Assembly (NCBI RefSeq): GCF_011801125.1
Contig: NZ_CP046171.1
Span: 6,076,001 to 6,140,000, forward strand
DNA from: Nocardia brasiliensis
Lineage (GTDB): Bacteria > Actinomycetota > Actinomycetes > Mycobacteriales > Mycobacteriaceae
Length of the DNA: 64,000 bases
Direction: 5' to 3'
Shown here: positions 47,116-64,000 of the stretch, one piece after another
Numbering within the stretch: position 1 is the stretch's first letter
How the letters are laid out: every line of letters begins with the position of its first letter
Position numbers and translations under genes: made by a program
The notes under the pieces: model-generated
What the model was told of the DNA's origin: nothing
The model's database searches: none
Seen by the model: the letters and a program-made list of their open reading frames with translations, nothing else

Positions 47116-47822
47116 TCGCCTTCCAGTACAGCGAACGGATCGTGCAGATAGCTTTCGTTACCGTCCGGGTTACGAACTGTTGCTGTGTCGTGGATTATGT
47201 TGCGCCACTCGTACTTACGCTGTTCTGGGTCGAAACTGATCGGCAGATCGCGGATCCGTTCGCCGAGCGATTCGGGGTGTTCTCCGTCGATCGTGTCTCG
47301 AAAGATCTCGAGGTGCAGCGTTTTGGGTTGGCGGCGGCGGTACCAGGACGCGGCCAGCCACGACGTCGTGCGCAATGTGTCGACAAGCGTGGCCTCTTGG
47401 ATCTGGTCCAGTACGAGCGGGCCGGCGACTGGGCAAGATCGCCTGCCCAGATAGAGCGGAAACGCGGGTCGCAGAAGAGCTTGGCGCAGCCCATCGAGGA
47501 CATCTCGAGGCCCTTCGAGCACGGCGAGGAACGCTGCGTCGGCGAGGTAATACCGTTGCGAGAGCGGGTATTGAACTGTTTCATCCAAGCTGACGGCGGT
47601 TTGGAAGTCCCTGAGCATGGTGCCGCGTTGGTCCACCCGGACACCGAATCGCAATGCAGCCAAGTCTTCGAGCGGCTCGGTGCGCCGTCGGCCAAGAGCT
47701 GCCGCGATCAGCCCCAATACGCCGCTCTTTGTAGGGAATTGGAGCGTCTCGCGACGCGCGAATCGGCTCCGATGACCCCATGCTTGTAGAGGTGCGGCCA
47801 GACGCAGTTGCAGAACGCTCAT
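47112..47822 (-). CDS. cas5: Cascade subunit Cas5e (CasD)
   Basis: A 236-residue Cas5e from the ATG at 47822 that overlaps the cas7 stop (ATGA). The N-terminal RAMP strand LQLRLAAPLQAWG and the following ETLQFPTKSGVLGLIAAALG are standard for the family. It binds the 5' handle of the crRNA. Intact. Confidence 0.93.
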   Translation of the reverse strand: MSVLQLRLAAPLQAWGHRSRFARRETLQFPTKSGVLGLIAAALGRRRTEPLEDLAALRFGVRVDQRGTMLRDFQTAVSLDETVQYPLSQRYYLADAAFLAVLEGPRDVLDGLRQALLRPAFPLYLGRRSCPVAGPLVLDQIQEATLVDTLRTTSWLAASWYRRRQPKTLHLEIFRDTIDGEHPESLGERIRDLPISFDPEQRKYEWRNIIHDTATVRNPDGNESYLHDPFAVLEGE

Positions 47823-48934
47823 TTCATCGCGCCGAGATAGTCCTCGACCTTCGCGGCTACGGCGTCCACTGCGCTGCACAGGGACTGCGGTTCGCTCAGC
47901 TCTGACAGACTGGTGCTGGTCGAGTTCGAGACGACCACGTAGTTGGTGGCGGAACCATCGCCGTAGGAGTTCTCGATCGAGGTAAAGGTATCCACCAGTC
48001 TCCGGGTTGCTGCGGTCGAGCGTGCTGTGCCTGGTTGGTCTACGGGGTCTTCGAAGGCGTTCACCAGATTGATTGGCTGGTCTGTGCGCAAACTGATGAG
48101 GACGGCGTCAGGCAGTGTCCGGTTGGCGAAGGTGTTCTGTTTGCCGGTGGGCATGCTCTTGACGAAGGCATCGAGAAATGTTGCCACCGAGTGCTTTGTG
48201 ACGACGTCGTCGCCGATGTTCTCCCGCAGTAGGGCAACGTTTACGGTGGCATACCGGTACAGGGTAGATGAGTTGAACTCGACTACTCCGATCATGCCTG
48301 CTCCGGCGTTGTCCGCGGGGGCCATGTCGTCGACAGCGGTGAAGTAGTCGAACTCGTTGTCCACGGCGTGGACGCTGATCGCATGCGCGACCTGCGCGGC
48401 GGCGTCGATATTGAGATCGGAAGCGTCTGCGACCATACGCCCGAACAGCGCGACGTCGATGCTGTTGGCGCCGGTCGCGGCCTTCTTGGCGGCCGCCTTG
48501 GGGATTGGGGATCCTGTGGTCGCGGATTCGGCTGCCAGCGCCGCGAGTCGGTCGATCTGCGAGGAGCTGAGAAACAGGAGGTATTTCGACTGTTCGACGT
48601 CTTCCGGTGCGCCCTTGGCCCGCTTTTCGACGGTGATTCCTGCTGCCGACAATGCCTGTGCGGCAAGCTTTTCCGGTTCGGGAAGGGCGTCATCGAGTTT
48701 GGCGATGCGGTCGGCGACCAGCTCGACTATCCGTTTGGTTCGAACCCCCAGGGTCGCGGGATCGAGCAATCGGCGGAACTCTTGGCGGGTGGCCCGCTTC
48801 CACGCTTGGCTGGACACTCGCGCTCGACGGACACCTCCGTAGGTCGCGGTCTTGGGGCTACCGGTGTCGTCGCGGTTGATGTTGCTCGGGGGAACTGTCT
48901 GCAGAATATGTACGTCGACGAACAATCTATTCAC
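47819..48934 (-). CDS. cas7: Cascade backbone subunit Cas7e (CasC)
   Basis: A 371-residue Cas7/CasC. The N-terminal FVDVHILQTVPPSNINRDDTGSPKT and RVSSQAWKRATR are diagnostic. Six copies form the backbone along the crRNA spacer. Its start overlaps the cse2 stop by 8 bases. Intact. Confidence 0.95.
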   Translation of the reverse strand: MNRLFVDVHILQTVPPSNINRDDTGSPKTATYGGVRRARVSSQAWKRATRQEFRRLLDPATLGVRTKRIVELVADRIAKLDDALPEPEKLAAQALSAAGITVEKRAKGAPEDVEQSKYLLFLSSSQIDRLAALAAESATTGSPIPKAAAKKAATGANSIDVALFGRMVADASDLNIDAAAQVAHAISVHAVDNEFDYFTAVDDMAPADNAGAGMIGVVEFNSSTLYRYATVNVALLRENIGDDVVTKHSVATFLDAFVKSMPTGKQNTFANRTLPDAVLISLRTDQPINLVNAFEDPVDQPGTARSTAATRRLVDTFTSIENSYGDGSATNYVVVSNSTSTSLSELSEPQSLCSAVDAVAAKVEDYLGAMK

Positions 48935-49565
48935 TGCTGGCTCCTGTCGAGTCGGTCAGGTCGGACGCTGAGAGCGGTTCGGGCTTGCGCCGCTGATGGT
49001 GGTATCCCCGTCCCCATTCGAGGCGGACTTGGTCGGCTTGTTTGTGGTCTTGTAGGCGGCGGAGATCGCGAGCCAGGCGTCCGTAGTCGAGTGGTATTGC
49101 GGCGGATCGGAATTGCCTGATCAGCCCTCGTAGGTGGATCAGGCCGCTGGACAGGCTGGATGCCGCGATCAGGGCGTGGAACCGGGCCTGCACGGCGGCG
49201 TCGTTGGCGGTGGTGAGGCCGAGGCGGTAGACCGCGTGTCCGATATTGTTGCCCTCGCGATGTGTTCTGATCCGACTCGATTGCTGATGTAGCGCGTGCA
49301 GAGTGATCGCATAGTGGGCTGCGCATTCCCATTGCGTCGGGTCGGCATCCAGCGGTGCGATCAGGGTCTGAGGGAGATCTTTGAGCGTGTACTCCCAGAC
49401 CTCCTGGCGGCTACCCGGCGCCGCGGTGACAGCGCGACGTAGTTTCGCAAGTGCTGCGGCTGCTCGGGTATCGTCATTCAAGTGTCTCGACTGCATCATC
49501 GAGACCGTTCGCCGAACAAATGCCGCCAAATCGTCGTCCAGTTCCACCATGGTGGGTCTGGTCAT
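48927..49565 (-). CDS. cse2: Cascade small subunit Cse2 (CasB)
   Basis: A 212-residue helical Cse2/CasB. Recognisable parts are the N-terminal helix region with AALAKLRRAV, a central YAITLHALHQQ and the basic C-terminal end (LEWGRGYH). Two copies stabilise the R-loop. It overlaps the cse1 stop by 4 bases. The C-terminal tail is longer and more charged than in E. coli. Confidence 0.88.
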   Translation of the reverse strand: MTRPTMVELDDDLAAFVRRTVSMMQSRHLNDDTRAAAALAKLRRAVTAAPGSRQEVWEYTLKDLPQTLIAPLDADPTQWECAAHYAITLHALHQQSSRIRTHREGNNIGHAVYRLGLTTANDAAVQARFHALIAASSLSSGLIHLRGLIRQFRSAAIPLDYGRLARDLRRLQDHKQADQVRLEWGRGYHHQRRKPEPLSASDLTDSTGASSE

Positions 49566-51241
49566 TGCTTCTCCTCTTTGCCGAGCACTGGTCGATGAAA
49601 TGCCGCCGGAAGCGCGGACCGAAGCAGATAGAAGAACCGCCCTTCCGCACGGGCCGCATCCATGTAGCGATCCCCGATTCGCCGCCCGACCCGTGCTGGC
49701 GTTCCGGCGGTATCGATGAGTTCTCTAGCGATTCGCACAACTTCCCGCCGCACGGCCTCCTGCCAGTTCCGGTCATAGAGTTCGACATCTGCAGCCGAGG
49801 CAAGCCCGGCAAGCCATCTCCGGTAGGAAGATTCGAGGATGAAATAGCCGCGCTCGCGTGCATGGCTGCGCGCGAGGGTCGGCTCTCCGCCCGCCGCGAG
49901 CGCTAGATCCCCGGCCAGCGAGGCGAGGATACCGACGGAGTTCTCCGCTGTCTTGATCGCGTCGAGCGCGCACATCCGTAGATGCGGGTCGCTCGACAAC
50001 AACGCGACGCGGAATGTCAGCGAGTCGTCGACAACCTCACCGACTACGGCCTGGTTGTTCACGTACTCCATCCCGGTCGCGTGCAACCGAATTAACTGGG
50101 TCACATCGAGTTTGCCGTCCTCGACCAGTCTCGACGCCCACTGCACGAGGCCTGGCTGCACCGGAGCTCCGCGGTCATTCTTTGATTGCCCCTGGGACAG
50201 TAGGGACGCGAGGCTGCGCCACAGCCCTCTCTCCACGTGGTGAGTCAAGGGGTAGTGGCGATCCCTACCGGACTTCTTGGTCTGCACCTGGCTGAACCGC
50301 CAGGCTGTCATAGGCTCGAATCGCTGTTTATTGAACGGTTCCAGCGGATCACCGTTGCACAAGACAACGCCGGTGACTGCCTTCTCCTCGGCGACGAGAC
50401 GGATCCGTCTGCTCTGCCAGGTGAACAGATCCGCAGGGCCTGATGGCTCGGGGTCAAGCCGGACCGTCGGCCCTGCAGGTGGACGTTCCCACGCTGGTTT
50501 GTCTTCTTTCGGGTATGGGTTGTCATCGAGACCGGCGAGTGCGGTATTGAGAATGAGAGTCTCGGCGAGATTCGCGCCCTCCCAATAGATCCCGCCGAGT
50601 TGGCCGGTCCACGCGACCCCGATCGGATATCCTCGTCCGCCTTTCGCTCTCGGGTCGCCATCAGCGCCCGATTTGATCCCGGATGGATCAAATGCTTGGG
50701 CGTGCACGAGCCATCTCGCTGCCTCGGCAAAGGTGATGGCCTCCATGTGTCGGCCGCCACGTGAGGTGAAGTACTTGTGCCCGTTGGGGACATCGGCGAT
50801 CAGGACATCAAGTGTGCTGGCGCCCTTGTTGATACGGAGGTCAGCTACCTGGAAGAACGGCGCGACGGGATCGAACAGGTTGAATCGAGTCTTGTGATCG
50901 TCGAGGTATTGGTCGATCTCGGCCAAGGGCAGGGCATCATCGGTCCACAAGGACTTCCACACATCGGTCGGCCGTCCCGATCTGTCCCTGATGCTTCGAC
51001 GCAGGATGGCCAGCAGCAACCGCAGGATCGCGAATGTCTGTGTTGGGATCTCGCCGCTGAGCGTCAAAACTTGAGGGGCGTCGCGGAATACGGCACGAAG
51101 CGATAATTCGCGGGCCCTCGGCTCCAATTGACTACCGGAGCTGGCAGTGCTGCCAGTGTCGTGGTAGATCACTGGAATCCAAGGGTCATTGAGCAGGTCG
51201 AAGCGAGGAGGATTTGATTCCGGTGCCGACTCGACAGTCAC
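49562..51241 (-). CDS. cse1: Cascade large subunit Cse1 (CasA)
   Basis: A 559-residue Cse1/CasA, which reads the PAM and recruits Cas3. The N-terminal FDLLNDPWIPVI and the ALREVF-like SLRAVFRDAPQV, then QTFAILRLLLAIL, are the standard opening of the family; GGRGYPIGVAWTG lies centrally. Start and stop overlap cas3 and cse2 by 4 bases each, so all Cascade genes are translationally coupled. Confidence 0.93.
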   Translation of the reverse strand: MTVESAPESNPPRFDLLNDPWIPVIYHDTGSTASSGSQLEPRARELSLRAVFRDAPQVLTLSGEIPTQTFAILRLLLAILRRSIRDRSGRPTDVWKSLWTDDALPLAEIDQYLDDHKTRFNLFDPVAPFFQVADLRINKGASTLDVLIADVPNGHKYFTSRGGRHMEAITFAEAARWLVHAQAFDPSGIKSGADGDPRAKGGRGYPIGVAWTGQLGGIYWEGANLAETLILNTALAGLDDNPYPKEDKPAWERPPAGPTVRLDPEPSGPADLFTWQSRRIRLVAEEKAVTGVVLCNGDPLEPFNKQRFEPMTAWRFSQVQTKKSGRDRHYPLTHHVERGLWRSLASLLSQGQSKNDRGAPVQPGLVQWASRLVEDGKLDVTQLIRLHATGMEYVNNQAVVGEVVDDSLTFRVALLSSDPHLRMCALDAIKTAENSVGILASLAGDLALAAGGEPTLARSHARERGYFILESSYRRWLAGLASAADVELYDRNWQEAVRREVVRIARELIDTAGTPARVGRRIGDRYMDAARAEGRFFYLLRSALPAAFHRPVLGKEEKQ

Positions 51242-53988
51242 TCGGGCCCACTCTCTGAAGTTACCGTCAGCCCCAGCAGCGGATCGTAGTGCAACCGACG
51301 TCCGGCAACCTTTGCTTGAAACTGCTCATCGAGCACGAGTGCCAGCTCGTTCCGCAGCCACGGCGAGTAGCGCCAACCGCGAGGACGGTTCTGTTCCAGC
51401 TCTGTTTCCACCCTGCTGATTCGCCCGTAGTTGGTCAATGAGTTCGGAAGCCGGATCGTGCATCCCGCCAAGGCTTTTGCCATCGCCGCAGATGGAGCAC
51501 GATCTGTAGGAATCGGATCTGCGCCAAAATCTGCAATGTTGGGAAGCATCCGGATCCTGCTTCCGGCTCGCTGCACAACGATCGCCTCGACGCTCTCGTC
51601 GGTGTCGCGGACCTGAGCCTGACCACCAGCGCCATCCGCGTCCCTCGCCGGCGCATCCAATATTCCCGACAGGGACACCCGGTCGACCACCGAGGGCAGC
51701 AAGTAGTCGCGAGCACGGGCGACCTGATCCTGGATATATGCCGCCCACCGCTCATCAGCTTGGGCGATGGCTTCTTCCCACGATTCAGGAGCCGCCAACT
51801 TCTGTGCATAAGCGTCAGCAACGAGCGTGGGGACATCTCCTGGCAGCGTCACCAACTTTCCAGCGAAATGCTCGTCAAGAACGGCTGCAGCTCGCAGAAG
51901 ACGCGACGCGCCGTACACCGCGACCGATCCCTGAACCAGCGGCGGCAGATTCGCCCCTCCGACAACCCCCCGAATCAGGCAGATCGGTGCCGCGACTCGG
52001 GCAGGCCGCCGAGGTCGATCGTGGCGATGCAAACGACCCATACGCTGCAGTATCAGGTCTACCGGCGCCAAGTCGGTGATCAGGAGGTCGAAGTCGATGT
52101 CGAGAGATTGCTCGACCACCTGGGTAGCGACCACGATCAGTCGCGTCGGCCGTTTCCCCTTTCCTGGCGGGCCCAACAGCTTGCGCAGTCTCGCCTCGAG
52201 CCGGGTGCGATCAGCAGCAATGAATCTCGAGTGCAGCAACATCAGCTGGGAATCAGCAAAGACACGCTTCCCGAACTGCTTGGCGCGCAGCGCAGTAAAC
52301 ATTGCTTGGGCCCGGGCAACTGTGTTGCAGACAATTCCTACGCAACCGCCCTCGGTGAGGAGGTCCCGCAGCTTTTCCACGACAACGTCCGGGTCGTCCT
52401 CGAGTCGGTCGAGCGAAACCCTTAGCGAACGATCTGAGGGCTCGACAGCGACCGTGCGGACGTCGACAGCTGAGCAGACAGTCAGGCACGGGTAGGACGA
52501 GTCGATTTCCACCGGCTGCGCAGAACCCTTTGACGCACCCCGTCGATACGCGTCGATCAACGTATTCCTCTGCGCTGGTGGCAATGTCGCCGACAGCAGC
52601 AATACGGGCACCTGATAGGCGCCGAGCCATTCCAGGCATCGCGCGAGGTAGGTAGACATGTAGCTGTCGGCCGCATGTACCTCGTCGATGACAACGACCT
52701 TGTTCGCCAATGCCAGGTGACGCAGCATCACGTGCCGCACCTTTAGTGCCGCGGTGAGGACTTGATCGATCGTGCCGACAACGAAGTTCGACAGCGGCCC
52801 CTTCTTTCTGCCGGCCAGCCACTCATGCACGACCACCGCGTCCTCAGCGCAATCAATACCGATCGCATCCAGATGCCCTTGCCCGAGCCGGACGAACGCG
52901 TCGTTCAGTGCAGCCTTTCCGTGCGCAAGGAAGACACTTCCCGCAGGATCCGGAAGCCGACCGGCCCACTCCAGCACGCGACCGAACATCGCATCCGAGG
53001 TCGCCATCGTCGGCAGCGCCACGAAGACACCTCCGAATCCGAATCTGCGCGCCAAGATCTCGGCCGCCAACAACGCCGCCTCGGTCTTGCCCTCCCCCAT
53101 CGGCGCCTCAATGATCATCAACCCAGGCTCGGACACCCGCGCGGCCAGTCGAACAACCTCGAGCTGTAACGGGTGCGCCGTGGCACCTGGCGGCAACTTG
53201 AACCGCTTGGAGAGTAGGTCCGCTTCGCCTACATCGCAGTGTGGCTGCCACGGCGCCGGAAGCCCCAGGTCCTTCCAGACTCGATCCGCCGTCAAAGGAT
53301 CGCGCCCCTCCACCAACGGAAACAGACTGTCATTGCTGGCCAGCCAATCCGCGACGATCACCGCGGCCGTCAACAACATCTGCACACCAACCGGCAGCGG
53401 CGTTCCTCTCCAATCAGGGAAACGCTCAGCGGCCCCAACTGCGCAGGCCATGTACCAGAGCAACTCCGAACGACTCGTCACCCAGGCACCAGAACCCAGC
53501 TTTGATGTCGCATACCGAGCCATTACGGCCTCCGAGCCCGGCGGAACACCGTGATGGCTGCCTGCAACAGTGGCAAACGTTGCAGCGACTTCCACCGCCC
53601 ACCCACACTCATCAACCAGAAACTGCTCCAGCACAACCTGACTGGCCAAGTTGTGCGGCAGATCCCGGCGATTGGCCACCGGATACTTCAATGGCAGCCC
53701 GCTGCGATCCATCCGCTCGGCCAACGGCCACACCTGACAAGCAAACGCGGGCGTCAACTTCCCGACGTCATGCACACCAGCCAGCCAACTCAACAAGATC
53801 CGTCCGTCCACCTCACCACCCGGCAAAGCCTCCGCAAGCACCCGTCGTGTCGCCGTCGGCAACCACCGATCCCACACCAAAGCGCCCACCGCTGCCGCAT
53901 CCAGCGAATGCTGAACCAACGACAGACTGCTCCCCTGCCGCTCCTCACTCTTGGCCCACGCCGACCGCGTGGCCGCGCTCAACCCCAA
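51238..53988 (-). CDS. cas3: CRISPR nuclease-helicase Cas3
   Basis: A 916-residue Cas3, the effector that degrades target DNA. The N-terminal HD nuclease has HSLDAAAVGALVWDRWL, AGVHDVGKLTP and GSHHGVPPG. The helicase has Walker A MGEGKTEAALLAAE, the DEAH-like box VIDEVHAADSYM, motif III LLSATLPP and motif VI QRMGRLHRHD. All catalytic motifs look intact. The TTG start at 53988 has GAGGGGG upstream. It leads the cas operon and overlaps cse1 by 4 bases. Confidence 0.95.
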   Translation of the reverse strand: MGLSAATRSAWAKSEERQGSSLSLVQHSLDAAAVGALVWDRWLPTATRRVLAEALPGGEVDGRILLSWLAGVHDVGKLTPAFACQVWPLAERMDRSGLPLKYPVANRRDLPHNLASQVVLEQFLVDECGWAVEVAATFATVAGSHHGVPPGSEAVMARYATSKLGSGAWVTSRSELLWYMACAVGAAERFPDWRGTPLPVGVQMLLTAAVIVADWLASNDSLFPLVEGRDPLTADRVWKDLGLPAPWQPHCDVGEADLLSKRFKLPPGATAHPLQLEVVRLAARVSEPGLMIIEAPMGEGKTEAALLAAEILARRFGFGGVFVALPTMATSDAMFGRVLEWAGRLPDPAGSVFLAHGKAALNDAFVRLGQGHLDAIGIDCAEDAVVVHEWLAGRKKGPLSNFVVGTIDQVLTAALKVRHVMLRHLALANKVVVIDEVHAADSYMSTYLARCLEWLGAYQVPVLLLSATLPPAQRNTLIDAYRRGASKGSAQPVEIDSSYPCLTVCSAVDVRTVAVEPSDRSLRVSLDRLEDDPDVVVEKLRDLLTEGGCVGIVCNTVARAQAMFTALRAKQFGKRVFADSQLMLLHSRFIAADRTRLEARLRKLLGPPGKGKRPTRLIVVATQVVEQSLDIDFDLLITDLAPVDLILQRMGRLHRHDRPRRPARVAAPICLIRGVVGGANLPPLVQGSVAVYGASRLLRAAAVLDEHFAGKLVTLPGDVPTLVADAYAQKLAAPESWEEAIAQADERWAAYIQDQVARARDYLLPSVVDRVSLSGILDAPARDADGAGGQAQVRDTDESVEAIVVQRAGSRIRMLPNIADFGADPIPTDRAPSAAMAKALAGCTIRLPNSLTNYGRISRVETELEQNRPRGWRYSPWLRNELALVLDEQFQAKVAGRRLHYDPLLGLTVTSESGPE

Positions 53989-54354
53989 ACCGACACCCCC
54001 TCTTCGATGTTCGCGGAACCCAAGGACAGCTCAACCACCTTCGCATCCCCCACTGACACGTTCTGCGCGCGAACCGGCAGCAAGAATATGTGACACAGAT
54101 CGAGATCGACTACATATTCACGACTTTCGGATGTAGATCAACAATTGACAGCGGCAGATGGGCTGACCAATCACCAGACACCCCCGGCCAGGAACTCGAA
54201 TCTGTTGCCTAGGTGCGCTTTCGAGCAAAGAGGAACCCGTAAGGTCGGTTTCTTGCTTCTAGTACGGAGGGTCCGTAGCGTACGCGGCGCTCAGGAAGCG
54301 ATGAATGTCTAAGGATTTGAAGTCGTAGGGAAGCGGGGGACGGTGAGGCCCAAC
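53989..54354. promoter_or_regulatory. Divergent promoter region of the cas operon
   Basis: 366 bases between cas3 and the DUF3800-like gene, lower in GC than its surroundings. No gene is seen. The first 100 bases upstream of cas3 resemble the region upstream of the cas3 remnant at 55202-55363, so the promoter was duplicated along with it. Confidence 0.5.
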
Positions 54355-54858
54355 ATGTACGTGGACGAGACAAAGAACGGCGCGTTCAGATTGGCCGCTC
54401 TGGTCACTGCACCGGACCGCCACGACTTTCTATGCAAGATGCTGCGGCCGCAGTCGTCCCGCAGCCCCAGCACAGTTCATTTCTTCCGCATGGAACCCAA
54501 GGCTCGACGGGCGTTCGTCACACTCATCGTGTCGCTGAGGCTGGACTGCCGCGTCTATGAGTGCTGGCAAGGATCAGACGTCCAGGCCCGCTCAGACTGC
54601 CTCAGCGCGCTGGCAGCCGACGCAGTCGATCTCAACGCCCGTGAGATCGTCCTCGAACGTGACGATTCGAATGTCAAGCGAGACCAGAGAGTACTTCGGA
54701 CTACGCTCAGAGACTCCGACATCTTCTTCCGCCACGCTCGCGCCCGCGAGGAACGCCTTCTCTGGGTTCCCGACGCAGTGGCGTGGTGCTGGCAGAAGGG
54801 AGGGGAATGGAGAACACGGGTGGAACCGATTGTTTCCGACGTCCGCCAAGTTGAGTAA
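54355..54858 (+). CDS. DUF3800-like protein
   Basis: A 167-residue protein from the ATG at 54355 (GTGAGG upstream; the GTG at 54343 is less likely). It begins MYVDETKNGAFRLAALV and contains TVHFFRME, AADAVDLNAREIVLERDDS near the middle. This is the DUF3800 pattern (Asp-Glu at the start and LERDDS), predicted to have an RNase H-like fold with acidic residues at the active site. The role is unknown. It diverges from cas3 and is followed by decayed CRISPR repeats, so a link to defence is possible. Confidence 0.7.
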   Translation: MYVDETKNGAFRLAALVTAPDRHDFLCKMLRPQSSRSPSTVHFFRMEPKARRAFVTLIVSLRLDCRVYECWQGSDVQARSDCLSALAADAVDLNAREIVLERDDSNVKRDQRVLRTTLRDSDIFFRHARAREERLLWVPDAVAWCWQKGGEWRTRVEPIVSDVRQVE

Positions 54859-54882
54859 TGGATCGCACCAGATCTAGATTGG

Positions 54883-54959
54883 GGTCTCCCCGATCACACG
54901 GGGATGATCCGGTCTACGGAATCGAAGTGGTTGATTCCCCGCGTATGCGGGGTTGCAAG
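54883..54959 (+). repeat. Two decayed CRISPR repeats in reverse orientation
   Basis: 54883-54910 matches the I-E repeat at 23 of 28 bases by eye but on the plus strand, opposite to the main array. After a gap of 22 bases, 54933-54959 keeps only the hairpin core CCCCGCG...GCGGGG. They look like the remains of an inverted array fragment. Confidence 0.55.
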
Positions 54960-55201
54960 TCGACCTGCCATGGAGGGCAGGTCGGATACGTCGTCTTTTC
55001 ACAGCGCGACGACGCAGAGTCCGCGCAGAACGCTCCGCCTGCTGGGTCACACCGGTGCTCGACTCCAATGTCGAGCACCGGTCACACATTTGGCGTGCCG
55101 GTGCCTTCGTACTGAACCGGCCGGGGGTGGCTTGGCCTCCAAGATCATGCCCCGCTAGGAATCGCACGGCGCACCGAGCCGCGTCTGGCGCACACACCGC
55201 G

Positions 55202-55363
55202 CTACTCCACCAACAGCTCGACAACACTCGGCGCAAGCCACCGATCGAACAGATGACCGGCAACATCAGCGGAGTCGTCCATGTGCTGCCACAGCGGCAA
55301 CCACTCACCAACAGCGTTCGGCGACTTCGCCCACACCGATCGAGCAGCCTCGCTCAACACCAA
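55202..55363 (-). pseudogene. N-terminal remnant of a second cas3
   Basis: A 53-residue frame starts at a TTG with AAGGGAG upstream and reads LSEAARSVWAKSPNAVGEWL, then WQHMDDSADVAGHLFDRWL. It is plainly the start of a Cas3 HD domain and parallels the intact Cas3 (LSAATRSAWAKS and HSLDAAAVGALVWDRWL). It ends at a stop after ELLVE and the rest of cas3 is absent. It is more like other I-E Cas3 proteins than a recent copy of the neighbour, so it is probably the rest of a separate locus. Confidence 0.8.
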
Positions 55364-55659
55364 GACCGACTCCCTTACGAAAGAATCCGCCCCGAATCCC
55401 GGGAACGCACAACACTGTCGCATCTCCCACTGATAAGTTTGCTGCGCCTCCGGAATAGCGAGAAGCTCAACAACTTCCAGCAAACGCTACTCGCGAAACC
55501 ACCTACATGAGCGCACTTCCAGCAATGCACAACAGAAACATCGAAATGACCAACTGACCGGTTCTCCAACCTCGGCAACCGACGTCTACCAAGCACAGCA
55601 CGCGCTACACCCAACACGGCGAGCACAAATTCGCAAACTCGCCCCCATCAGCCAGGTAT
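55364..55659. other. Gap between cas3 remnant and mini-array
   Basis: About 300 bases with no gene. Its left third resembles the region upstream of the intact cas3, as expected for a relic cas promoter. Confidence 0.45.
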
Positions 55660-55810
55660 GGATTGCCCGCGTGCGCAGGCAGCACGCACGCGACATCTCG
55701 GCGACCGACCATCTCTTGATCGGATCATCCCCGCGTGCGCGGGGAGCACGCTCACGGTCGCGATCCGGTGATCCGTTTCCCCGGATCATCCCCGCGTGCG
55801 CGGGGAGCAC
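55660..55810 (-). CRISPR. Mini CRISPR array with two spacers
   Basis: Two perfect I-E repeats (55722-55749 and 55783-55810) and one decayed repeat (55660-55685) enclose spacers of 36 and 33 bases. Orientation is the same as in the main array. The bases after 55810 begin with the same ten-base leader anchor as the main array. The repeats match those of the main array, so the intact Cas proteins could process its transcript. Confidence 0.85.
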
Positions 55811-56023
55811 ACTTGTTGACTGGGAGTTCTCTTCGAGTCGGCCGACTTTTCGATCGGTTTCTCCCGGCGACCAGAGTCCACAGACTTGGTCACGTCTCGC
55901 CTTCTTCTCCGCTAGCTCATCGGGCTTGGGCCCATTCTCGTTCGAACTCGTCTTGTGGTATTTCGACGGCGTCGAATTCGGGCTGGCTTGCGATCTCTTC
56001 GACTGGGGCGATGGGTATCCCGG

Positions 56024-56943
56024 CTAGGTCATGTCTCCCAATAGTTTGAGCCATTCAACTACAAGGGCGATGACGATCCCGGCGCGGTAGGTCAAGGCGA
56101 GTTTGTCGTAGCGGGTGGCGACTGCGCGCCAGTGTTTGGCCTTGTTGAAGGCGCGTTCGACGACATTGCGGCCCTTGTAGGCAGTCGAGTTGAACGCTGG
56201 TGGTCGCCCACCGGCACGACCGCGGCGTTTCCGGTGGGCGACCTGATCGCTTCGTTCGGGAATAACGCAACAGATACCTTTGCCACGCAACAGAGTTCGG
56301 TTGCTTGCTGAGGAATATGCCTTGTCCGCGAGCACCTGGTCTGGATTGCGGCGCGGTGGGCCGCCACCCAGCCGCGGCACGGCGATCGCCTCGGGCACCG
56401 CTGGCATCATCGGTGAATCACCTGCCTGGCCCGCACTGAGCAACACCGCCAGACCTCGGCCGTTGCCGTCACTAGCCAGATGAGCCTTCGTCGTCAGCCC
56501 GCCCCTGGACCGGCCGACCGCGTGATCAGCCGGCTCATAACTCACCATCCGGGCTGGGGCTCGTGTCCTTGCCACGAGAGGAATTGGCTCCGTGCTGATG
56601 CACCCGCATGATCGAAGAGTCCACCGACACAACCCAATCCAGATTCCCGGTCGCGTCCGCGAGCGCGGTCAACGCAACCAGCACCCGATCCCCAGGTTCC
56701 GTCACCGGCATACCGGCGATGCCGCTTCCACACCGTCTGCCAGGGCCCGAATACCTCGGGCAGATCCCGCCACGGCACCCCGGTCCGCAACCGGAACAAC
56801 ATTCCTTCCACCACCAGGCGATTGTTGGTGAAGTTGCGGCCCACCCGGCCATCGGATGTCGGCAGTAACAACTCGAGCAGCTCCCACTGCTTGTCCGTCA
56901 GAATCCGATATCGGTCACCAACCGCTGTCACCACGGCGAACAT
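56024..56943 (-). CDS. IS5-family transposase in two overlapping frames
   Basis: Frame 1 (56943-56542) encodes the N-terminal part (YRILTDKQWELLELLLP, GVPWRDLPEVFGPWQTVW). Frame 2 (56632-56024) encodes the DDE core: GRSRGGLTTKAHLASDGNG, DQVLADKAYSS and RNVVERAFNKAKHWR. In this group the two are joined by programmed frameshifting, probably in the overlap near 56560-56632. The first aspartate is in VSVDSSIMRVHQHG. The stop codon of frame 2 uses the target duplication. Confidence 0.8.
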
Positions 56944-57170: not shown

Positions 57171-57299
57171 TCAGTTCCTTCCCGATCGAACGATTCGTCC
57201 TGAGAGGTCGAGGGGCTCGGTGTTGGGGACGACGAAGACGCCAGGGCGTCCCTGGACGACGGTGAGTCCTGTGACGTCGATTTCCAGGAAGTGCGAGAA
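57171..57299 (-). pseudogene. C-terminal fragment of an unknown gene upstream of the DUF6881-like gene
   Basis: A frame of about 42 residues (FLEIDVTGLTVVQGRPGVFV to LSGRIVRSGRN) ends two bases before the DUF6881-like start, so the two were once an operon. Its upstream part is replaced by the binding-protein fragment. The protein is not identified; a toxin with the DUF6881 protein as immunity partner is a guess from gene order only. Confidence 0.4.
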
Positions 57300-57653
57300 C
57301 TGTTGCGCGACGCGATCACCGGCAAGACCATCCGCACCGCGTTCCGCAACGCCTGGCAGGACGACTACCCCGCCATGCTGAATTTCCTGATGCCGCAATA
57401 TCTTTCCGATTCGGGAAGCAACGACATCGGCTACGTCAACACCGAATTCGACAAGGTGATCGCCACCGCGCTGGCCGCGCAGACTCCCGAGGAGTCCTAC
57501 GCACTCATCGGCCAGGCGCAAGCCTTCCTGTACCAGGACATGCCCGACGTCCCGGTGTTCAACGACAACAACAACGCCGGACATTCGGACACGGTGCGCC
57601 AGGTGAAACTGACCTGGAACGGCCTCTTCGCCTACGAGGGCGTCGAAAAGTAG
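57291..57653 (+). pseudogene. C-terminal fragment of a second OppA-like binding protein
   Basis: The last 116 codons of a family 5 binding protein. Aligned by eye to the intact lipoprotein at 26677-28281 there are 16 differences in 116 residues, and both end in LTWNGLFAYEGVEK. No signal peptide, start region or N-terminal two thirds remain. The junction with the unrelated fragment lies near 57295. It is followed by its own terminator-like hairpin. Confidence 0.85.
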
Positions 57654-57743: not shown

Positions 57744-59120
57744 TCATCGGCGAACCACCCGAAGCCGACCGAGCCAGGTCGGGAGCACGGTGCCGATTCG
57801 GCGGGCACGCGGGGCGGTGGCACCGACCACGGCGTGCGGGTTCGCCGCAACCCGCCGCAGTAAGGCAGTGAGTTCGGCCAGCACTTCAGTGACGGCGGAG
57901 TCGTCGTACTGAGTGGAATTCGCATCGATACGGATGCCGACCCGGCGGTCGCCCGGCAACTCGTACACCGAAACCAAAAGGTCGTCCACCGCCCCGTAAG
58001 ACAAGGGCTCCATCGCACTCGTCGCATCGCCGAAGCGCGGCGACTCCAGGAAAGGCACCAGATTTATCGCCGGACCCAGTGGATTACGCACGTGACCGGA
58101 CAGCCCCACGTCGGCAATGACATCGGACAAGGGGTAGCGCGAGTGCGTCATACATTTCGATACCTCGTCCAGGAACGCGGCGACGAAGCTGGAGAACCGG
58201 CGATCAGCCATGGTTGCCACTTTTACCGGGACCATGTTGGCCAGCATCCCCACTTCAGATCTCGCGAGCCCCGATCTGTTCGCCGCGACGTATCGCAGGA
58301 CGAATTCGGAGCTGCGCGCACAGGTCGAGAAGTACGCCGCGACTGCGGCGGAAACGAATTGCAGGACCCACACTCCCAGCTGATCCGCAGCCAGTCGCAC
58401 CGATTCCCCCGCCGCGTCGGACAGCACCAGCTCTTTGGTCTTCAGGCCGTCTTCGGTACCGTCACGCGCGGACGGGAGCGCGGGCGGCTCAGGAACAACG
58501 TCGAGATAGTCCGACCAGAATTGGCGATCCGCAATCCGCTCGGCGGAATCGAGATACTCCTCTTCTTCGCGCACGATCCTTTCCGGTCCGGCGAACGGGG
58601 TATCACCAACCGGGTCGCCTGCCAGCAAGGCAGCGTAGATCTGCGCCACCCGGCGGATGAAGATCATCGACCCGTAGCCGTCGATCACCAGGTGGTGCGC
58701 GGCCAGAAAGAGCAGGTGCCGGTCATCCGCGATCTTGATCAGGCCGACGCGGTGCAGCTGGTCCGCCGCCAGGTCCACCGGGGCGGCGAGGATGCCGCTG
58801 ACCAGGTCACGCCCGCTGCGCTCCGGATCCTCCGATCCGCTCAGGTCGTAGTGCGCGGGACAGCAGACCACGTCGGTACGCCTGCGCTGCACGACTCGCC
58901 AATCCGCGACCTCGAAATTCACATGGAGAGCGCCCGCTTCAGTTTCGGTTGCCGCTAGCGCTGCAGACATCAGATCGGAATCAATGGGCCCCGTCACCCC
59001 CCAGACCACGGAAATCACGTTCTGTAACCGCGGTGCCAGGGACTGGGCGAGCCATAATCCTTCCTGCGGGCGCGTGATCGGAAGCTCGCCCGCAACGGGC
59101 CTTCCCACACCGACTTCCAT
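57744..59120 (-). CDS. Free-standing condensation-domain protein
   Basis: A 458-residue protein of the NRPS condensation/PapA acyltransferase superfamily. The catalytic motif HHLVIDG is at 142-148, with the opening TRPQEGLWLAQ (motif C1) near residue 17 and NMVPVKV (motif resembling the C5 region) in the second half. Such enzymes join a carrier-bound acyl chain to an amine or alcohol. As the last gene of a fatty-acid activation and desaturation operon, it probably releases the finished chain as an ester or amide. No adenylation domain for an amino acid is nearby. Confidence 0.85.
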   Translation of the reverse strand: MEVGVGRPVAGELPITRPQEGLWLAQSLAPRLQNVISVVWGVTGPIDSDLMSAALAATETEAGALHVNFEVADWRVVQRRRTDVVCCPAHYDLSGSEDPERSGRDLVSGILAAPVDLAADQLHRVGLIKIADDRHLLFLAAHHLVIDGYGSMIFIRRVAQIYAALLAGDPVGDTPFAGPERIVREEEEYLDSAERIADRQFWSDYLDVVPEPPALPSARDGTEDGLKTKELVLSDAAGESVRLAADQLGVWVLQFVSAAVAAYFSTCARSSEFVLRYVAANRSGLARSEVGMLANMVPVKVATMADRRFSSFVAAFLDEVSKCMTHSRYPLSDVIADVGLSGHVRNPLGPAINLVPFLESPRFGDATSAMEPLSYGAVDDLLVSVYELPGDRRVGIRIDANSTQYDDSAVTEVLAELTALLRRVAANPHAVVGATAPRARRIGTVLPTWLGRLRVVRR

Positions 59121-59140
59121 CTCGTCCTCTTACTGTGTCG

Positions 59141-59329
59141 TCAGAGCTCGGTCATGACGAAATCTTCCTTTGCCGCGCCGCAGTCCGGGCACCGCCATTC
59201 GTCCGGAATATCTTCCCAGCGCGTTCCCGGCGCGATCCCTTCCGAGGGAACACCCAGGGTTTCGTAATATACCCAGCCGCACACTAAGCACATCCATGCT
59301 TTCGTAGCGGTCTGCTCGGACCGACCCAT
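59141..59329 (-). CDS. Rubredoxin
   Basis: A 62-residue rubredoxin from the ATG at 59329 with GAGGAG upstream. Iron ligands are Cys14, Cys17, Cys47 and Cys50 (CLVCGWVY and CPDCGAAK), with the usual GIAPGT-WEDIPD loop. It carries electrons to membrane alkane hydroxylases and desaturases. Here it directly follows a membrane desaturase gene and probably serves all three desaturases in the operon. Confidence 0.95.
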   Translation of the reverse strand: MGRSEQTATKAWMCLVCGWVYYETLGVPSEGIAPGTRWEDIPDEWRCPDCGAAKEDFVMTEL

Positions 59330-59372
59330 CGCGATCACTCCTCGATACGATGCGAATACGTGGTTGCCTGCG

Positions 59373-60440
59373 TTACCGGCGGCGCCGACGCCGCAGCACC
59401 GACGTGGCATAGAGTCCGGACACCGGATCGTAAAATCGGCATCTTTTCAATATCCGCCATAACGCCGATACCGTGGCCGGTTGTTCTCGGACCATGCCGG
59501 GATAGGCCTCTTTCAACGCCGCCTGCGCCTTGAGCAGGTTATGGGACGGAATTACCGGTGCCACATGGTGCGCGGTGTGGATAGAGATGTAGTGCGTCAG
59601 CAGCAGCAACCATCGCGAGTAGACGTAATCGGTGGTCACGAGTAGGCGGCTCGCGTTCCTGGTCCAATACTGGGCCGGTAGGAACGGAATATCCTCGGCG
59701 CTGTGATGCATCAGCGTCGTGATGCTGAACCACACATGCGTCAGGAACCACGGCGCGACGAAAAACAGCACCAAGCCGAGCCAGCCGCCTAAATATCCGA
59801 CGACCCCGAGATAGAGCGATCCGCCGAGCAGGACGAAGACGATGGAACGCCGGACGTCGCGTCGCATCTCCGCCTTGGGAAAGTAGGACGGACGGAACGC
59901 CGAGGTAGACCAGTAGTTGATACTGCCCGCCCAGACCGCCCACGTCCGGACACTGAGGTAGCCGAGCCTGCGCCACCACGGCAACCGCCGATACACTGCC
60001 TCGGAAATCGGACACCAGTCTCGATCCTCCGTCAGACTGTTGGTGTGGGAATGATGCATATTGTGTGCGTGCCGCCACGAGTGAAACGGGTACAGCAGCG
60101 GTATGGAAACGATATGGCCCACCACGAAATTGAGCTTTCGGTTCCGGGAGAACGAGCCGTGTCCGCATTCGTGCGCGACCAGATGCAACCCCCACCCGCC
60201 GAGTCCGGACAGGATGATGAGGACAGGGGTCACATACCAATTCATGAGTACCGCGGCCAGTACCAGCGGTCCGAAATATAAGCCCGCGCTCATCACCAGA
60301 CTCGCGATGCTTCGCGGCAACGAGGGCTCGAAATACGCTCGGGGAATCGCTGCCGCCAGCCGCTCGCCCTTGAGTTCCTCACTTTTCGCGACGAACTCGA
60401 GAAAGCGCGGGTCCGGCGCGGACGGTGTCACCTGGCTCAT
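59373..60440 (-). CDS. Membrane fatty acid desaturase (FADS type)
   Basis: A 355-residue integral membrane di-iron desaturase. The three histidine boxes are HECGH (in HLVAHECGHGSF), HNMHH (in HSWRHAHNMHHSHTN) and HTAHH. Four or more membrane helices frame them. This subfamily differs from the two stearoyl-CoA-type desaturases in the same operon and resembles Delta12-type desaturases and acetylenases. It lies between the carrier protein and rubredoxin genes. Confidence 0.9.
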   Translation of the reverse strand: MSQVTPSAPDPRFLEFVAKSEELKGERLAAAIPRAYFEPSLPRSIASLVMSAGLYFGPLVLAAVLMNWYVTPVLIILSGLGGWGLHLVAHECGHGSFSRNRKLNFVVGHIVSIPLLYPFHSWRHAHNMHHSHTNSLTEDRDWCPISEAVYRRLPWWRRLGYLSVRTWAVWAGSINYWSTSAFRPSYFPKAEMRRDVRRSIVFVLLGGSLYLGVVGYLGGWLGLVLFFVAPWFLTHVWFSITTLMHHSAEDIPFLPAQYWTRNASRLLVTTDYVYSRWLLLLTHYISIHTAHHVAPVIPSHNLLKAQAALKEAYPGMVREQPATVSALWRILKRCRFYDPVSGLYATSVLRRRRRR

Positions 60441-60462
60441 GACGGTCTGCCCTCCGCTCCGG

Positions 60463-60756
60463 TCATCGCGCCGACAGCTGCAGCCGGTCGGCGAGGTGGA
60501 CGGTCAGATCATCGATGGTCTGGTACTCGAACAGGATCGCCGGGGACAGCCGCTGCTCGACGAGCTTTTCGAGCTTGCCCGACAACTGCACCGCCGCACG
60601 GGAATCCAGCCCATAGTTCTCGAACGGCTGCGCACTGTCGATGTCGGCGGGCGAACAATTCACCCGCTCGGCTATCTGCTCCACCAACCAGCCGTGCAAC
60701 ACGGCCGCGGTGAGCGGCGGCCTGCCCCCTTCGGCGCGGCGGCGTTTGAACATCAT
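60463..60756 (-). CDS. Acyl carrier protein of the desaturase cluster
   Basis: A 97-residue carrier protein from the ATG at 60756 (GAAGGGA upstream). The phosphopantetheine site is Ser52 in YGLDSRAAVQL, with the typical DIDSAQPFENYGL helix before it. The sequence is nearer to polyketide/polyyne-type carriers than to housekeeping AcpP or AcpM. It would hold the chain activated by the fatty acyl-AMP ligase during desaturation. Confidence 0.9.
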   Translation of the reverse strand: MMFKRRRAEGGRPPLTAAVLHGWLVEQIAERVNCSPADIDSAQPFENYGLDSRAAVQLSGKLEKLVEQRLSPAILFEYQTIDDLTVHLADRLQLSAR

Positions 60757-60787
60757 CCACGTCCCTTCTTCGGTAACCGCGCGCGGT

Positions 60788-61765
60788 TCAGGCAGGCGCG
60801 TTCCGTCGTAGCTTGGATCCGACGGCGGACGCGCTCGGCGCCTTGAGATCCCAGACAATTCGCAGCTTCGCCAACAGCGCCAAGATCAACCCGCTGAGAT
60901 CGGGCTCCCACCACCGCATGGCGTGGCGGTAGGCGCCGGAAAAGGCGTGGTGGTTGTTCTGCAGTCCTTCACCGAAGGTGAAGATCGCGACCAGCCAATT
61001 GTTGGCGCTGTCGTCCTCGGTGGCGAACGGCCGGGTGCCGATCATGTGACTGATCGAGCCGACACACCAGGCCGCCTGATTCGCCACGAAGACTCGCGCC
61101 AGACCGCCGAAAATGAAGCCCGACCACGCGGACCCGGCACTGCCACCGACCAGATATCCGATGAGTGCGGGCAGCGCCAGGCTGGACATGGCCCACAGTG
61201 GATAGGTCCGGCTGTAGTTGAACAGCACGCGATCTCGGAGGATGTCCGGCGCGAAGACCTCGACCCGTGATTCCTTGTCACTGAACATCCACGGGATATG
61301 CGCGTACCAGAGGCCACGCAATTTTCCGCGCAGACCGGGCCCACTCATGTTCGGGGAGTGCGGATCGCCCAGCTCGTCCGCGAAACGATGGTGTCGGCGA
61401 TGAGTGATGACCCAGAAGAGCAGCGGTCCCTCGAGCGCCATCGAGCCGGCTATCATCATGACGCCTTCGAACACTCGCGACGTCTTGAACGACTTGTGCG
61501 CGGCGTAACGGTGGAATCCTATTGTGATGCCGAGCATCTGCACCGCGTACAGCACGGCGAAAAGAATCCAATCGAGGGCGGAGGCGCTGCCGGTCACCAC
61601 CAGGTAGACGGCGATCAGAAACCCGATTCCCGGAATCCCGATCGTGACAAGGGCGACGATCCGTTTTGCCCGTGCGCTCTTCGGATTGAGCTGCACGATC
61701 GCTCGAGCCACTGATTCCCGGTGCTCGGCCGTCGGGCCGGCGCCTCGGTTCGCGGAAGAATTCAC
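60788..61765 (-). CDS. Stearoyl-CoA-type desaturase with QxxHH third box
   Basis: A 325-residue membrane desaturase from the GTG at 61765 (AAAGGAGAG upstream), overlapping the stop of the next desaturase (GTGA). Boxes one and two are HRYAAH (85-90) and HRRHH (122-126). The third box reads QNNHH (269-273), with Gln in place of the first His of the usual HNxHH. The codon is clearly CAG. Gln at this site occurs in front-end desaturases, so altered regiochemistry or acetylenase activity is possible. Confidence 0.9.
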   Translation of the reverse strand: MNSSANRGAGPTAEHRESVARAIVQLNPKSARAKRIVALVTIGIPGIGFLIAVYLVVTGSASALDWILFAVLYAVQMLGITIGFHRYAAHKSFKTSRVFEGVMMIAGSMALEGPLLFWVITHRRHHRFADELGDPHSPNMSGPGLRGKLRGLWYAHIPWMFSDKESRVEVFAPDILRDRVLFNYSRTYPLWAMSSLALPALIGYLVGGSAGSAWSGFIFGGLARVFVANQAAWCVGSISHMIGTRPFATEDDSANNWLVAIFTFGEGLQNNHHAFSGAYRHAMRWWEPDLSGLILALLAKLRIVWDLKAPSASAVGSKLRRNAPA

Positions 61766-62688
61766 TTTCCCAACTCTCCTTTCGTCTCGGCGCGCACCCT
61801 GCTGACCAAGCCGAGGATGTTCAGAAGTCGAATGAAGTCGCCGGCCAGGTCCAACTGCCACCAATGGCGCCTGGTGCGCGCGAGACTCGGCCGCGCATGG
61901 TGGTTGTTGTGCCACGAGCCGCCGACCGAAGGGGGTGCGAGCAATGCGATATTCGTGCTGCCGTCCCGCGTCGGATATGGCCTGCTACCGATGGTGTGGC
62001 CCAGGGAGTTGACCATCCAGGTGACATGGTCGAGCACGAAGATGCGCGCGAATCCGCCCCACAGGATGCCACCGATCAGACCGCGCACACTCTGCGTCGC
62101 CGCGGCGGCAACCAGTCCGGGCAATACGATTCCGGCGAGCGCGATATGAAAGTAGTAGGCGTTCATCTTCATCACGCCGCGGTCCTGCAGCAGGTCTTTG
62201 CAGTGCCTGCTCCAGTCCATTCTTTCCACTCTGAACAACCAGCCGACGTGCCCGTGCCAGAGCCCTCGCCACCGCTTGGCCGGGCCGGAACCCCGTGGTC
62301 GCGGCGAATGCGGATCTCGTTCGGTGTCGGCGTAGGCGTGATGCACCCGGTGCGTGGCTACCCAGAAGATGATCGGACCCTGGAGCGCCATCGACCCCGA
62401 GATACCGAGAAAGACTTTGACCGGATTCACCGCCTCGAACGATCTGTGCGCGAAGTACCGATGGAAGCCCGCTTCGATGCCGAGGGCGGTCACTGCATAC
62501 ATGAGCACGAAGGCGACGACATCCGATGCGAACAGTCCGCTGGTCGACGCGTGGACTACGGCCGCAACGGCGCCGACCGTCGGCAGGCCCACCGTGAGAT
62601 AAGCGAGCCGCGACGCCGTGCGGTCGCGCTTCGCTGTGTGCCTGCTCGAATCGGTCGTCACGGGAGGCTTCGGAGATACGTCCGTCAT
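61762..62688 (-). CDS. Stearoyl-CoA-type acyl desaturase
   Basis: A 308-residue membrane desaturase with all three boxes intact: HRYFAH (76-81), HRVHH (113-117) and HNNHH in the C-terminal part (GSWHNNHHARPS). Four membrane helices are visible. The ATG overlaps the stop of the ligase gene (ATGA). It probably introduces the first double bond into the carrier-bound chain. It is a paralogue of the following gene. Confidence 0.92.
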   Translation of the reverse strand: MTDVSPKPPVTTDSSRHTAKRDRTASRLAYLTVGLPTVGAVAAVVHASTSGLFASDVVAFVLMYAVTALGIEAGFHRYFAHRSFEAVNPVKVFLGISGSMALQGPIIFWVATHRVHHAYADTERDPHSPRPRGSGPAKRWRGLWHGHVGWLFRVERMDWSRHCKDLLQDRGVMKMNAYYFHIALAGIVLPGLVAAAATQSVRGLIGGILWGGFARIFVLDHVTWMVNSLGHTIGSRPYPTRDGSTNIALLAPPSVGGSWHNNHHARPSLARTRRHWWQLDLAGDFIRLLNILGLVSRVRAETKGELGK

Positions 62689-64000
62689 AGGCGTACTTCT
62701 CTCTGGCGGATCGGCTGGAGTTTCGGAGCGAGGAGATCGGTGTTCGAGAGCAGCCGCCTTACTTCGTACCTACGCACCTTGCCGCTGGTCGTTGTCGGTA
62801 TCGCTCCTTTGGCGACGATCGCGAAGTGCGCGAGACGCAGCCCGAACGCTGTCGCAATATTCGCCCGAACTTCAGTAGTCAGTCGTTTGTGTGATCGCTC
62901 GTCCAGACCTGCGCCATCGAATTCGACCAGCACCCCGAGCTCCTCACCGCGAGCACCTTCGAGTGACACGGCCGCCGCGCGCCTGAAATTCTGGTCGAGC
63001 CCAGTGACGAGCAATTCGATATCGCTCGGAAATATATTGCGCGCATTGATGACGATCACGTCCTTGATGCGGCCTCTGACGTACAACTCTCCCTGTTCGA
63101 TGAACCCGAGATCGCCTGTGCGCAAGTAATTTTCGTCGCCGCCATGCAGGGAAGCAGCGAATGCGACTGCCGTCGACGCGGCGTCGCCATGGTAGCCCGC
63201 GGCCACGTTGCGGCCGGAGACCCATATTTCGCCCACGTCTCCTTGGGGCTGTTCGCGAAGCGATGTCGGATCGACGATCCGGACTCGATGCTCCTGATCT
63301 ACCACGCCGCAGCTGACGACCGCGTCATGGCCAGCCCCGCTCAACCGCAACGGCTGCCCCTTCCGTCGTCCGGAGATGAACAGCGTCGCCTCGGCCAAGC
63401 CGTAACACGGAATGATCGCATCGGGATCGAGGCCGCAATCGCCGAAGCGTTTCACGAAACGGGTGAGAGTGCCCGACCGGACCGGTTCGGCACCGCAATA
63501 CAGGTGGCGCACGCGCGACAGATCCAGCTCGTCCAGTTCCGCGTCGCGCACGGATTCGGCGCACAGATCGAGGGCGAAGTTCGGTCCTACTGTCGTCGTG
63601 GCACCGTAGTGCGTGAGCGCCGTGAGCCACCGCAGCGGGCGTTGGACGAAATGCAGCGGTGACATCGTGACCAAGGGCCAGCCGTAGAACATCGACAGGA
63701 TGATCGTGCCGATCAGGCCCATGTCGTGATATGGGGGCAGCCAGGAGACACCGACGCGCTCGGGATCGTCGCCCATATTGCGTCCGAGTACCCGGCAATT
63801 GCTGACCAGATTTGCGTGGGTGATCGCGACGCCCTTCGGCGAACCGGTCGATCCCGAGGTGTACTGGATCAACGCGAGACTGTCCGGTCGCGCGTGCACA
63901 CGAGGGACGGACGCGCCCTGCTCCAACTGCCTGCCGGTGACGATCGACGGCGCAGGCCGGTCACAGTCCAGGGCGGCCAGCTCTCGAACGCGGTGCTCGA
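62685..64000 (-). CDS. Fatty acyl-AMP ligase, N-terminus outside the window
   Basis: About 438 residues of an adenylate-forming enzyme that runs off the right edge in an open frame. Motifs are YTSGSTGSPKGV (phosphate loop), PPYHDMGLIG (typical of FAAL and FadD32-like enzymes), YGLAEATLFISG and YLRTGDLGFIEQGELYVRGR with DVIVINARNIFPSDIE. The order fits FAAL, which transfers the acyl-AMP to a carrier protein rather than to CoA. It leads the operon of desaturases and carrier protein. Confidence 0.9.
   Translation of the reverse strand, partial: EHRVRELAALDCDRPAPSIVTGRQLEQGASVPRVHARPDSLALIQYTSGSTGSPKGVAITHANLVSNCRVLGRNMGDDPERVGVSWLPPYHDMGLIGTIILSMFYGWPLVTMSPLHFVQRPLRWLTALTHYGATTTVGPNFALDLCAESVRDAELDELDLSRVRHLYCGAEPVRSGTLTRFVKRFGDCGLDPDAIIPCYGLAEATLFISGRRKGQPLRLSGAGHDAVVSCGVVDQEHRVRIVDPTSLREQPQGDVGEIWVSGRNVAAGYHGDAASTAVAFAASLHGGDENYLRTGDLGFIEQGELYVRGRIKDVIVINARNIFPSDIELLVTGLDQNFRRAAAVSLEGARGEELGVLVEFDGAGLDERSHKRLTTEVRANIATAFGLRLAHFAIVAKGAIPTTTSGKVRRYEVRRLLSNTDLLAPKLQPIRQREVRL

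Follow-up and report, generated by a model that had tools for sequence, protein, structure and literature searches.

A minus-strand gene run at the right-hand end of the 64,000-base window analysed here (Nocardia brasiliensis, NZ_CP046171.1, bases 6076001-6140000 of a 7,949,490-base genome) appears to be a polyyne operon of a known bacterial kind with a rewired release step. The run spans 64355-57744 (coordinates above 64000 continue the window numbering; adding 6076000 gives the chromosomal position) and encodes, in that order, a fatty acyl-AMP ligase (FAAL), the desaturases DesA and DesB, a dedicated acyl carrier protein (ACP), a third desaturase (DesC), a rubredoxin and a free-standing condensation (C) domain. 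We propose, with a probability of about 0.5, that the C domain moves a polyynoyl chain to a carrier-bound cyclic amino acid and thereby forms an amide.

Pfam matches recovered on the minus strand every gene that the initial annotation had named in this run: the ligase, the carrier, three desaturases, the rubredoxin and the free C domain. Gene starts that differ from those of the open reading frames (ORFs), such as the starts of the rubredoxin and ACP genes, were picked by eye. The FAAL gene (64355-62685; PF00501, E 7.4e-69) runs 355 bases beyond the window end. The leading NCBIfam models for its product are mostly fatty acyl-AMP ligase models, all scoring below their own cut-offs, and the protein is 36-52% identical to the FAALs of polyyne loci. 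DesA (62688-61762) and DesB (61765-60788) are desaturases of the polyyne A and B clades; both match PF00487 and share 68% and 75% identity, respectively, with locus L071. The ACP gene (60756-60463; PF00550, E 9.5e-13) lies between those of DesB and DesC; its product has an LDS motif and is 41-60% identical to the ACPs of polyyne loci. DesC (60440-59373; PF00487), of the PgnH/CayE type, is 65% identical to its Mycobacterium hubeiense counterpart and 51-65% identical across 55 compared polyyne loci, Pseudomonas protegens among them. Histidine boxes were seen in all three desaturases. A rubredoxin match was found in 42 of the 55 loci, and the present rubredoxin (59329-59141; PF00301, E 3.3e-21) is 49-78% identical to those proteins. 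The C domain (59120-57744; PF00668, E 2.2e-43) is the last gene of the run, separated from the rubredoxin gene by 20 bases. The description of the run as an overlapping operon holds for FAAL/DesA and DesA/DesB, which overlap by 4 bases each, but not elsewhere, where the coordinates leave gaps of 20-43 bases.

The comparison loci came from a DesC profile, built from 16 homologues and scanned against a genome collection; the scan was seeded by two conserved peptides and may miss loci. It returned 66 loci, 53 of them with a DesC at least 45% identical. The count leaves aside 13 loci, 11 with a DesC of 24-31% and two with no DesC match. The 55-locus set consists of the 53 together with a Streptomyces goshikiensis plasmid locus (L021) and locus L110, and it contains near-copies (L021/L042, L038/L039 and two P. 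protegens loci). L038 and L039 are a Streptomyces griseofuscus polyyne locus present in two copies, near both chromosome ends, with identical tree rows. The set takes in P. protegens, Collimonas and Burkholderia, which are species or genera of characterised polyynes according to passages of PMC8406139. The order FAAL-DesA-DesB-ACP-DesC is common to the compared loci as far as each contig extends, with the sole exception of L066 (Nocardia colli), in which a separate DesA was not found. Because this order recurs in the 53 of 66 loci with a DesC at or above 45% (the DesA of L066 excepted), the cassette is not a chance grouping. The sections consulted of PMC9098870 give the architecture FAAL-2xFAD-ACP-FAD-H/TE-Rd for 56 clusters. 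The same order of FAAL, two related desaturases, ACP, third desaturase and rubredoxin characterises protegencin (pgn), caryoynencin (cay), the collimonins, the cepacins and massilin, as far as parts of PMC8406139 and PMC9098870 describe them.

Two quick trees were built, both with SH-aLRT support only and both flagged for long branches. The first, a concatenated DesA-DesB-DesC tree, holds the present locus and 52 others and excludes loci that lack DesB or have a DesC near 30%. The nearest cassettes in it are those of M. hubeiense, a Mycolicibacterium metagenome-assembled genome (MAG) and MAG SZAS-8 (grouping support 100). The present cassette and its mycobacterial kin sit inside an actinobacterial group (support 99), and the branch of the present cassette is long (0.41). 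The second tree compares 24 hand-picked polyyne loci with nine ordinary desaturases from members of the same genus or order; DesA falls in the polyyne A clade (97) and DesB in the polyyne B clade (100), both apart from all nine. A DesB of this type, at E 1e-85 or better, occurred in two of 397 sampled genomes of the order, the present genome included. The initial annotation had held that desaturases acting only on membrane lipids would count against a polyyne product. All three proteins do belong to PF00487, a family with 12 matches in this genome, but the placement of DesA and DesB outside the ordinary desaturase clades and the conserved gene order both disfavour an ordinary membrane-lipid role, which we consider extremely improbable. 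Because the gene order is kept and the DesA and DesB trees separate from ordinary desaturases, the sequence evidence supports the first six genes as a bacterial polyyne cassette in its conserved order. Of the two pathway types invoked earlier, polyyne and terminal alkyne, the polyyne recipe is thus borne out by the three-desaturase cassette and the jamaicamide type is not. The jamABC genes share with the present locus a FAAL, a membrane desaturase and an ACP, but they include, according to parts of PMC8406139, one desaturase where the present locus has three and a rubredoxin.

The present locus departs from the known clusters in how the cassette ends. The seven-gene bacterial polyyne cassette outlined in sections of PMC8406139 is represented here by its FAAL, two related desaturases, ACP, third desaturase and rubredoxin, and not by its thioesterase. 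A thioesterase match lies 28-225 bases after DesC in 48 of the 55 loci, and a cytochrome P450 match lies 24-110 bases after it in seven (L061, L063, L064, L065, L066, L073 and L110). The present locus has the rubredoxin and then the C domain after DesC, with neither a thioesterase nor a P450 in that slot. No C-domain match was found within 6 kb downstream in any of the 55 loci, or in the flanks of L021-L074, which reach no further than 10 kb and are often shorter. Two thioesterase queries found no polyyne-type thioesterase in the whole 7.95 Mb genome; as a control, the second of these queries detects the enzymes of M. hubeiense (61%, 9.8e-99) and P. protegens (37%, 2.6e-43). The absence of a polyyne-type thioesterase from both locus and genome is confirmed at the level of sequence, and we count the locus as a variant for this reason. 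According to passages of PMC8406139, polyynes were no longer made by mutants that had lost the cay thioesterase or any one desaturase of the triad (pgn, cay). Because the cay thioesterase was needed along with the desaturase triad, a substitute for it would be expected here. The P450-type loci likewise have no thioesterase, yet they are placed within the polyyne clade in the same parts of that study.

The C domain keeps the HHxxxDG motif as HHLVIDG. Against the PDB it matches most strongly CDA peptide synthetase I (4jn3, 5.8e-38), the nonribosomal peptide synthetase (NRPS) 7c1k, EntF, ObiF1 and VibH, all ranking above elongation domains such as that of TycC, and its best NCBIfam models are MxcG and then EntF, both below their whole-protein cut-offs. 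The closest relative found, by tblastn on plasmids, is the N-terminal C domain of an NRPS encoded on a Rhodococcus opacus plasmid (38%); a protein search that considered proteins of 0.55-1.75 times its length gave two further homologues, at 25% and 28%, among the matches listed. Starter-type C domains of the CDA PS1, EntF and VibH sort use acyl or aryl groups delivered on separate carriers, and the present domain most resembles such acyl- or aryl-accepting starters. It shares with CDA PS1 C1, EntF and VibH, its best sequence matches, the HHxxxDG motif, and it is free-standing like VibH; its donor would be a polyynoyl-ACP, unlike the donors of those three. The initial annotation had suggested that a free C domain stands in for the usual thioesterase, so that the product could be an ester or amide, and that a thioesterase and other genes pointing to a known lipid pathway would speak against its reading. 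No polyyne-type thioesterase appeared at the locus or genome-wide with a working control, and this absence together with the starter-like character of the domain supports both the suggested substitution and an ester or amide as the putative product.

Inspection of the sequence to the right of the window, a check suggested at the outset, revealed genes that could offer the C domain an acceptor. On the strand of the polyyne run lie NMO, a lysine/ornithine-type N-hydroxylase (68891-67611), PZS, a piperazate-synthase-like enzyme (67581-66877), a free adenylation (A) domain with a proline-like code (66908-65310) and TEx, an orphan ORF of 248 residues (65306-64560) between the A domain and the FAAL; these four are joined by overlaps or by gaps of at most 29 bases. 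A free peptidyl carrier protein (PCP; GGDS motif) starts near 69005 and is divergent, on the plus strand.

The best PDB matches of PZS are 9qlk (SbPZS, 1.8e-62), 9ebk (PipS), 9kea (LnzB) and 9jn4 (KtzT), named as in portions of PMC13274692, and they come ahead of NohD and PaiB. In an alignment counted by hand, PZS keeps His61, Asn66, Thr102, Tyr150, Ile154, Lys173 and Lys178 of SbPZS, while Asp177 is replaced by Glu, as in PipS (residues as given in the same portions). PaiB holds several of the active-site residues without bond-making activity, according to those portions, so the residues alone are no proof of piperazate synthase activity. Identity to the lunaemycin pair is 45% for NMO and 42% for PZS; to an adjacent same-strand pair on the Rhodococcus fascians plasmid NZ_CP015236.1 (110425-112316) it is 57% and 44%, respectively. 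Compared by way of the lunaemycin pair, the genes resemble KtzI-KtzT-type pairs in the adjacency of NMO and PZS and in the retained PZS residues; they differ in that NMO is nearer MbtG than KtzI and in an A-domain code unlike piperazate codes. In three congeners with piperazate-synthase loci, C and A matches were found at two of the three, and neither an NMO nor a polyyne cassette was found within 19 kb of these loci.

The A-domain code reads DVQ(L/F)NAHMVK, position 278 being ambiguous by one residue (first reading DVQFNAHMVK). The extraction procedure returned DVFTVAAYAK for three lunaemycin domains (printed as DVFSVAAYAK) and DAFFLGVTYK exactly for another. The code region is nearest to tyrocidine synthase 2 and gramicidin S synthase 2, whose matched modules we take to activate proline with the code DVQLIAHVVK. 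A proline-like pocket with Asn in place of Ile could, from its residues, fit piperazate, a ring-expanded analogue of proline.

From these parts a pathway can be proposed. The FAAL would convert a fatty acid to its acyl-AMP and load it onto the dedicated ACP, where DesA, DesB and DesC, receiving electrons via rubredoxin, would build a conjugated polyynoyl-ACP. NMO and the PZS-like enzyme would supply piperazate; the A domain would activate a cyclic imino acid, either piperazate or proline, and load it onto the PCP, making this the likeliest acceptor. The starter-type C domain would then transfer the polyynoyl group to the amine, in place of hydrolysis by a thioesterase, and the product might leave the PCP through TEx, through attack by an amine or by another route. 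In its most specific form, which we offer only tentatively, the product would be a polyyne amide (hydrazide)-bonded to piperazate with its N-N bond, possibly with an aminocyclitol as well; it would be a polyyne-NRPS hybrid with C-domain release and a new, proline-like piperazate A-domain code.

Several observations weigh against the proposed transfer to a carrier-bound cyclic amino acid. NMO, although it adjoins PZS, scores 500 bits against MbtG, a lysine enzyme, and 393 bits against KtzI. The A-domain code is unlike the known piperazate code DVF(S/T)VAAYAK (DVFSVAAYAK-like codes are printed in the consulted parts of PMC9866976 and PMC10888640). The PCP is on the opposite strand, the fold of TEx could not be assigned (mean pLDDT 43.1 in a single-sequence AlphaFold2 model), and a gap of 204 bases separates TEx from the FAAL, so that the two halves may be transcribed separately. 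This gap and the proline-like code would also suit two adjacent pathways, in which NMO, PZS, the A domain and the PCP make another compound, the C domain belongs to them, and the polyyne is freed as an acid by another hydrolase; an unrelated hydrolase could indeed supply the activity of a polyyne-type thioesterase. The position of the C domain tells against such a division, since it closes the polyyne run just past the rubredoxin gene, and the genes called in the NMO-PZS-A run include no C domain. We regard two separate pathways as unlikely.

TEx itself has no match in Pfam (up to E 10), NCBIfam or PDB, and a protein search had only TEx itself among the matches listed. As a diverged polyyne thioesterase it was rejected: no similarity appeared by BLASTP against two L021 proteins, or by hhalign or phmmer against polyyne loci. 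By eye, and as an impression only, it looked like an alpha/beta hydrolase with a Cys at the elbow.

Beyond the PCP, 10 kb to the right, lies a DegT aminotransferase of the 2-deoxy-scyllo-inosose type (5w70, 3e-141); among 150 congeners searched, 16 others gave best identities of 42-44%. The region beyond the PCP also encodes a zinc alcohol dehydrogenase, an inositol-monophosphatase-family protein, an APH-like kinase (a weak match, 1.8e-7), a weakly GMC-like oxidoreductase, a xylose-isomerase-like protein, a short-chain dehydrogenase/reductase, a second ACP, a second FAAL, a cut-short acyl-CoA dehydrogenase and a P450. The aminocyclitol genes may or may not belong to the polyyne pathway. VibH uses a free amine, and the C domain might in the same manner join polyynoyl-ACP to a small soluble amine, such as an aminocyclitol, with no PCP-bound acceptor. 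VibH (1l5a, named amide synthase in PDB) is indeed among the C-domain matches (8.1e-24), and the aminotransferase resembles L-glutamine:2-deoxy-scyllo-inosose aminotransferase. CDA, EntF and ObiF1 nevertheless outscore VibH, and the free A domain and PCP lie nearer than the aminocyclitol genes and would otherwise have no partner C domain among the island's called genes. Release onto a soluble amine therefore seems improbable to us beside transfer to a carrier-bound cyclic amino acid.

The island may also be decayed and without a product. Transposase-like ORFs, recognised by eye, lie near both sides of it, the acyl-CoA dehydrogenase is reduced to its first 222 residues, and the cassette branch is the long one noted above. 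Against decay, FAAL, DesA-C, the ACP, the rubredoxin, the C domain, the A domain, PZS and NMO are all full length relative to their families, with motifs intact where checked, and we judge decay very unlikely. The truncated acyl-CoA dehydrogenase, with N-terminal and middle domains only, is followed by one of the transposase-like ORFs (78955-80589 for the two), and the remainder of the gene was not seen to the right of that ORF. Left of the operon, again by eye, are a Cas3-like fragment (55202-55483), a transposase-like gene in two frames (56024-56943) and a C-terminal fragment of an ABC substrate-binding-like protein (57291-57653), a full relative of which is encoded at 26677-28281. Cas-like genes were recognised by eye within 45243-55817 (Cas3-like at 51238-53988), with a three-copy repeat array at 55666-55817, and CRISPR-like repeats appear in an ORF translation to the right of the island at about 83617-84609; the island thus lies between two arrays.

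Compared with pgn- and cay-type clusters, the present locus lacks their thioesterase, ends in a C domain and has upstream genes for NMO, PZS, an A domain and a PCP. Its closest cassettes (L022, L023 and L071) retain the thioesterase, have no rubredoxin match within 6 kb and carry a second FAAL-like gene downstream; two Mycobacteriaceae without rubredoxin are mentioned in parts of PMC8406139. The P450-type actinobacterial loci, also without a thioesterase, fit an exception described in the same source, as far as its consulted text goes. They have the P450 after DesC and no rubredoxin match, whereas here DesC is followed by a rubredoxin and a C domain, and the locus sits elsewhere in the tree. 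In two of them, L064 (5783-7612) and L073 (12375-14204), a 609-residue ORF starting MCGIAGW and asparagine synthetase-like by eye stands beside the P450, and amide release could occur there too. Downstream of the cassette, L064 (Amycolatopsis pithecellobii) also encodes a relative of NMO (34%), with no PZS match found, and L066 has weak A-domain and P450 matches on the other strand, again with no PZS match found.

Actinobacterial polyyne clusters are already known from genomes, as sections of PMC8406139 report, and a polyyne rule is present in antiSMASH 8 (stated in part of PMC12230676). As of 2021, no actinobacterial polyyne had been linked to a gene cluster, according to the consulted text of PMC8406139, and the titles and abstracts of open-licence literature gave no later link. 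In the same literature, mainly in titles and abstracts, we found no paper that treats a polyyne together with piperazic acid, and no precedent for a polyyne with a condensation domain, a polyyne in Nocardia, or a cluster combining an alkyne fatty acid with piperazic acid. Aminocyclitols and piperazic acid appeared jointly there in two reviews. The C-domain ending is new relative to the 55 compared loci, which have a thioesterase or a P450 there. Because the operon is proposed to end in an amide-forming enzyme, it offers a test of whether the polyyne triad can hand its chain to peptide-bond chemistry. If it does, the cassette could supply peptides and amines with conjugated alkynes.

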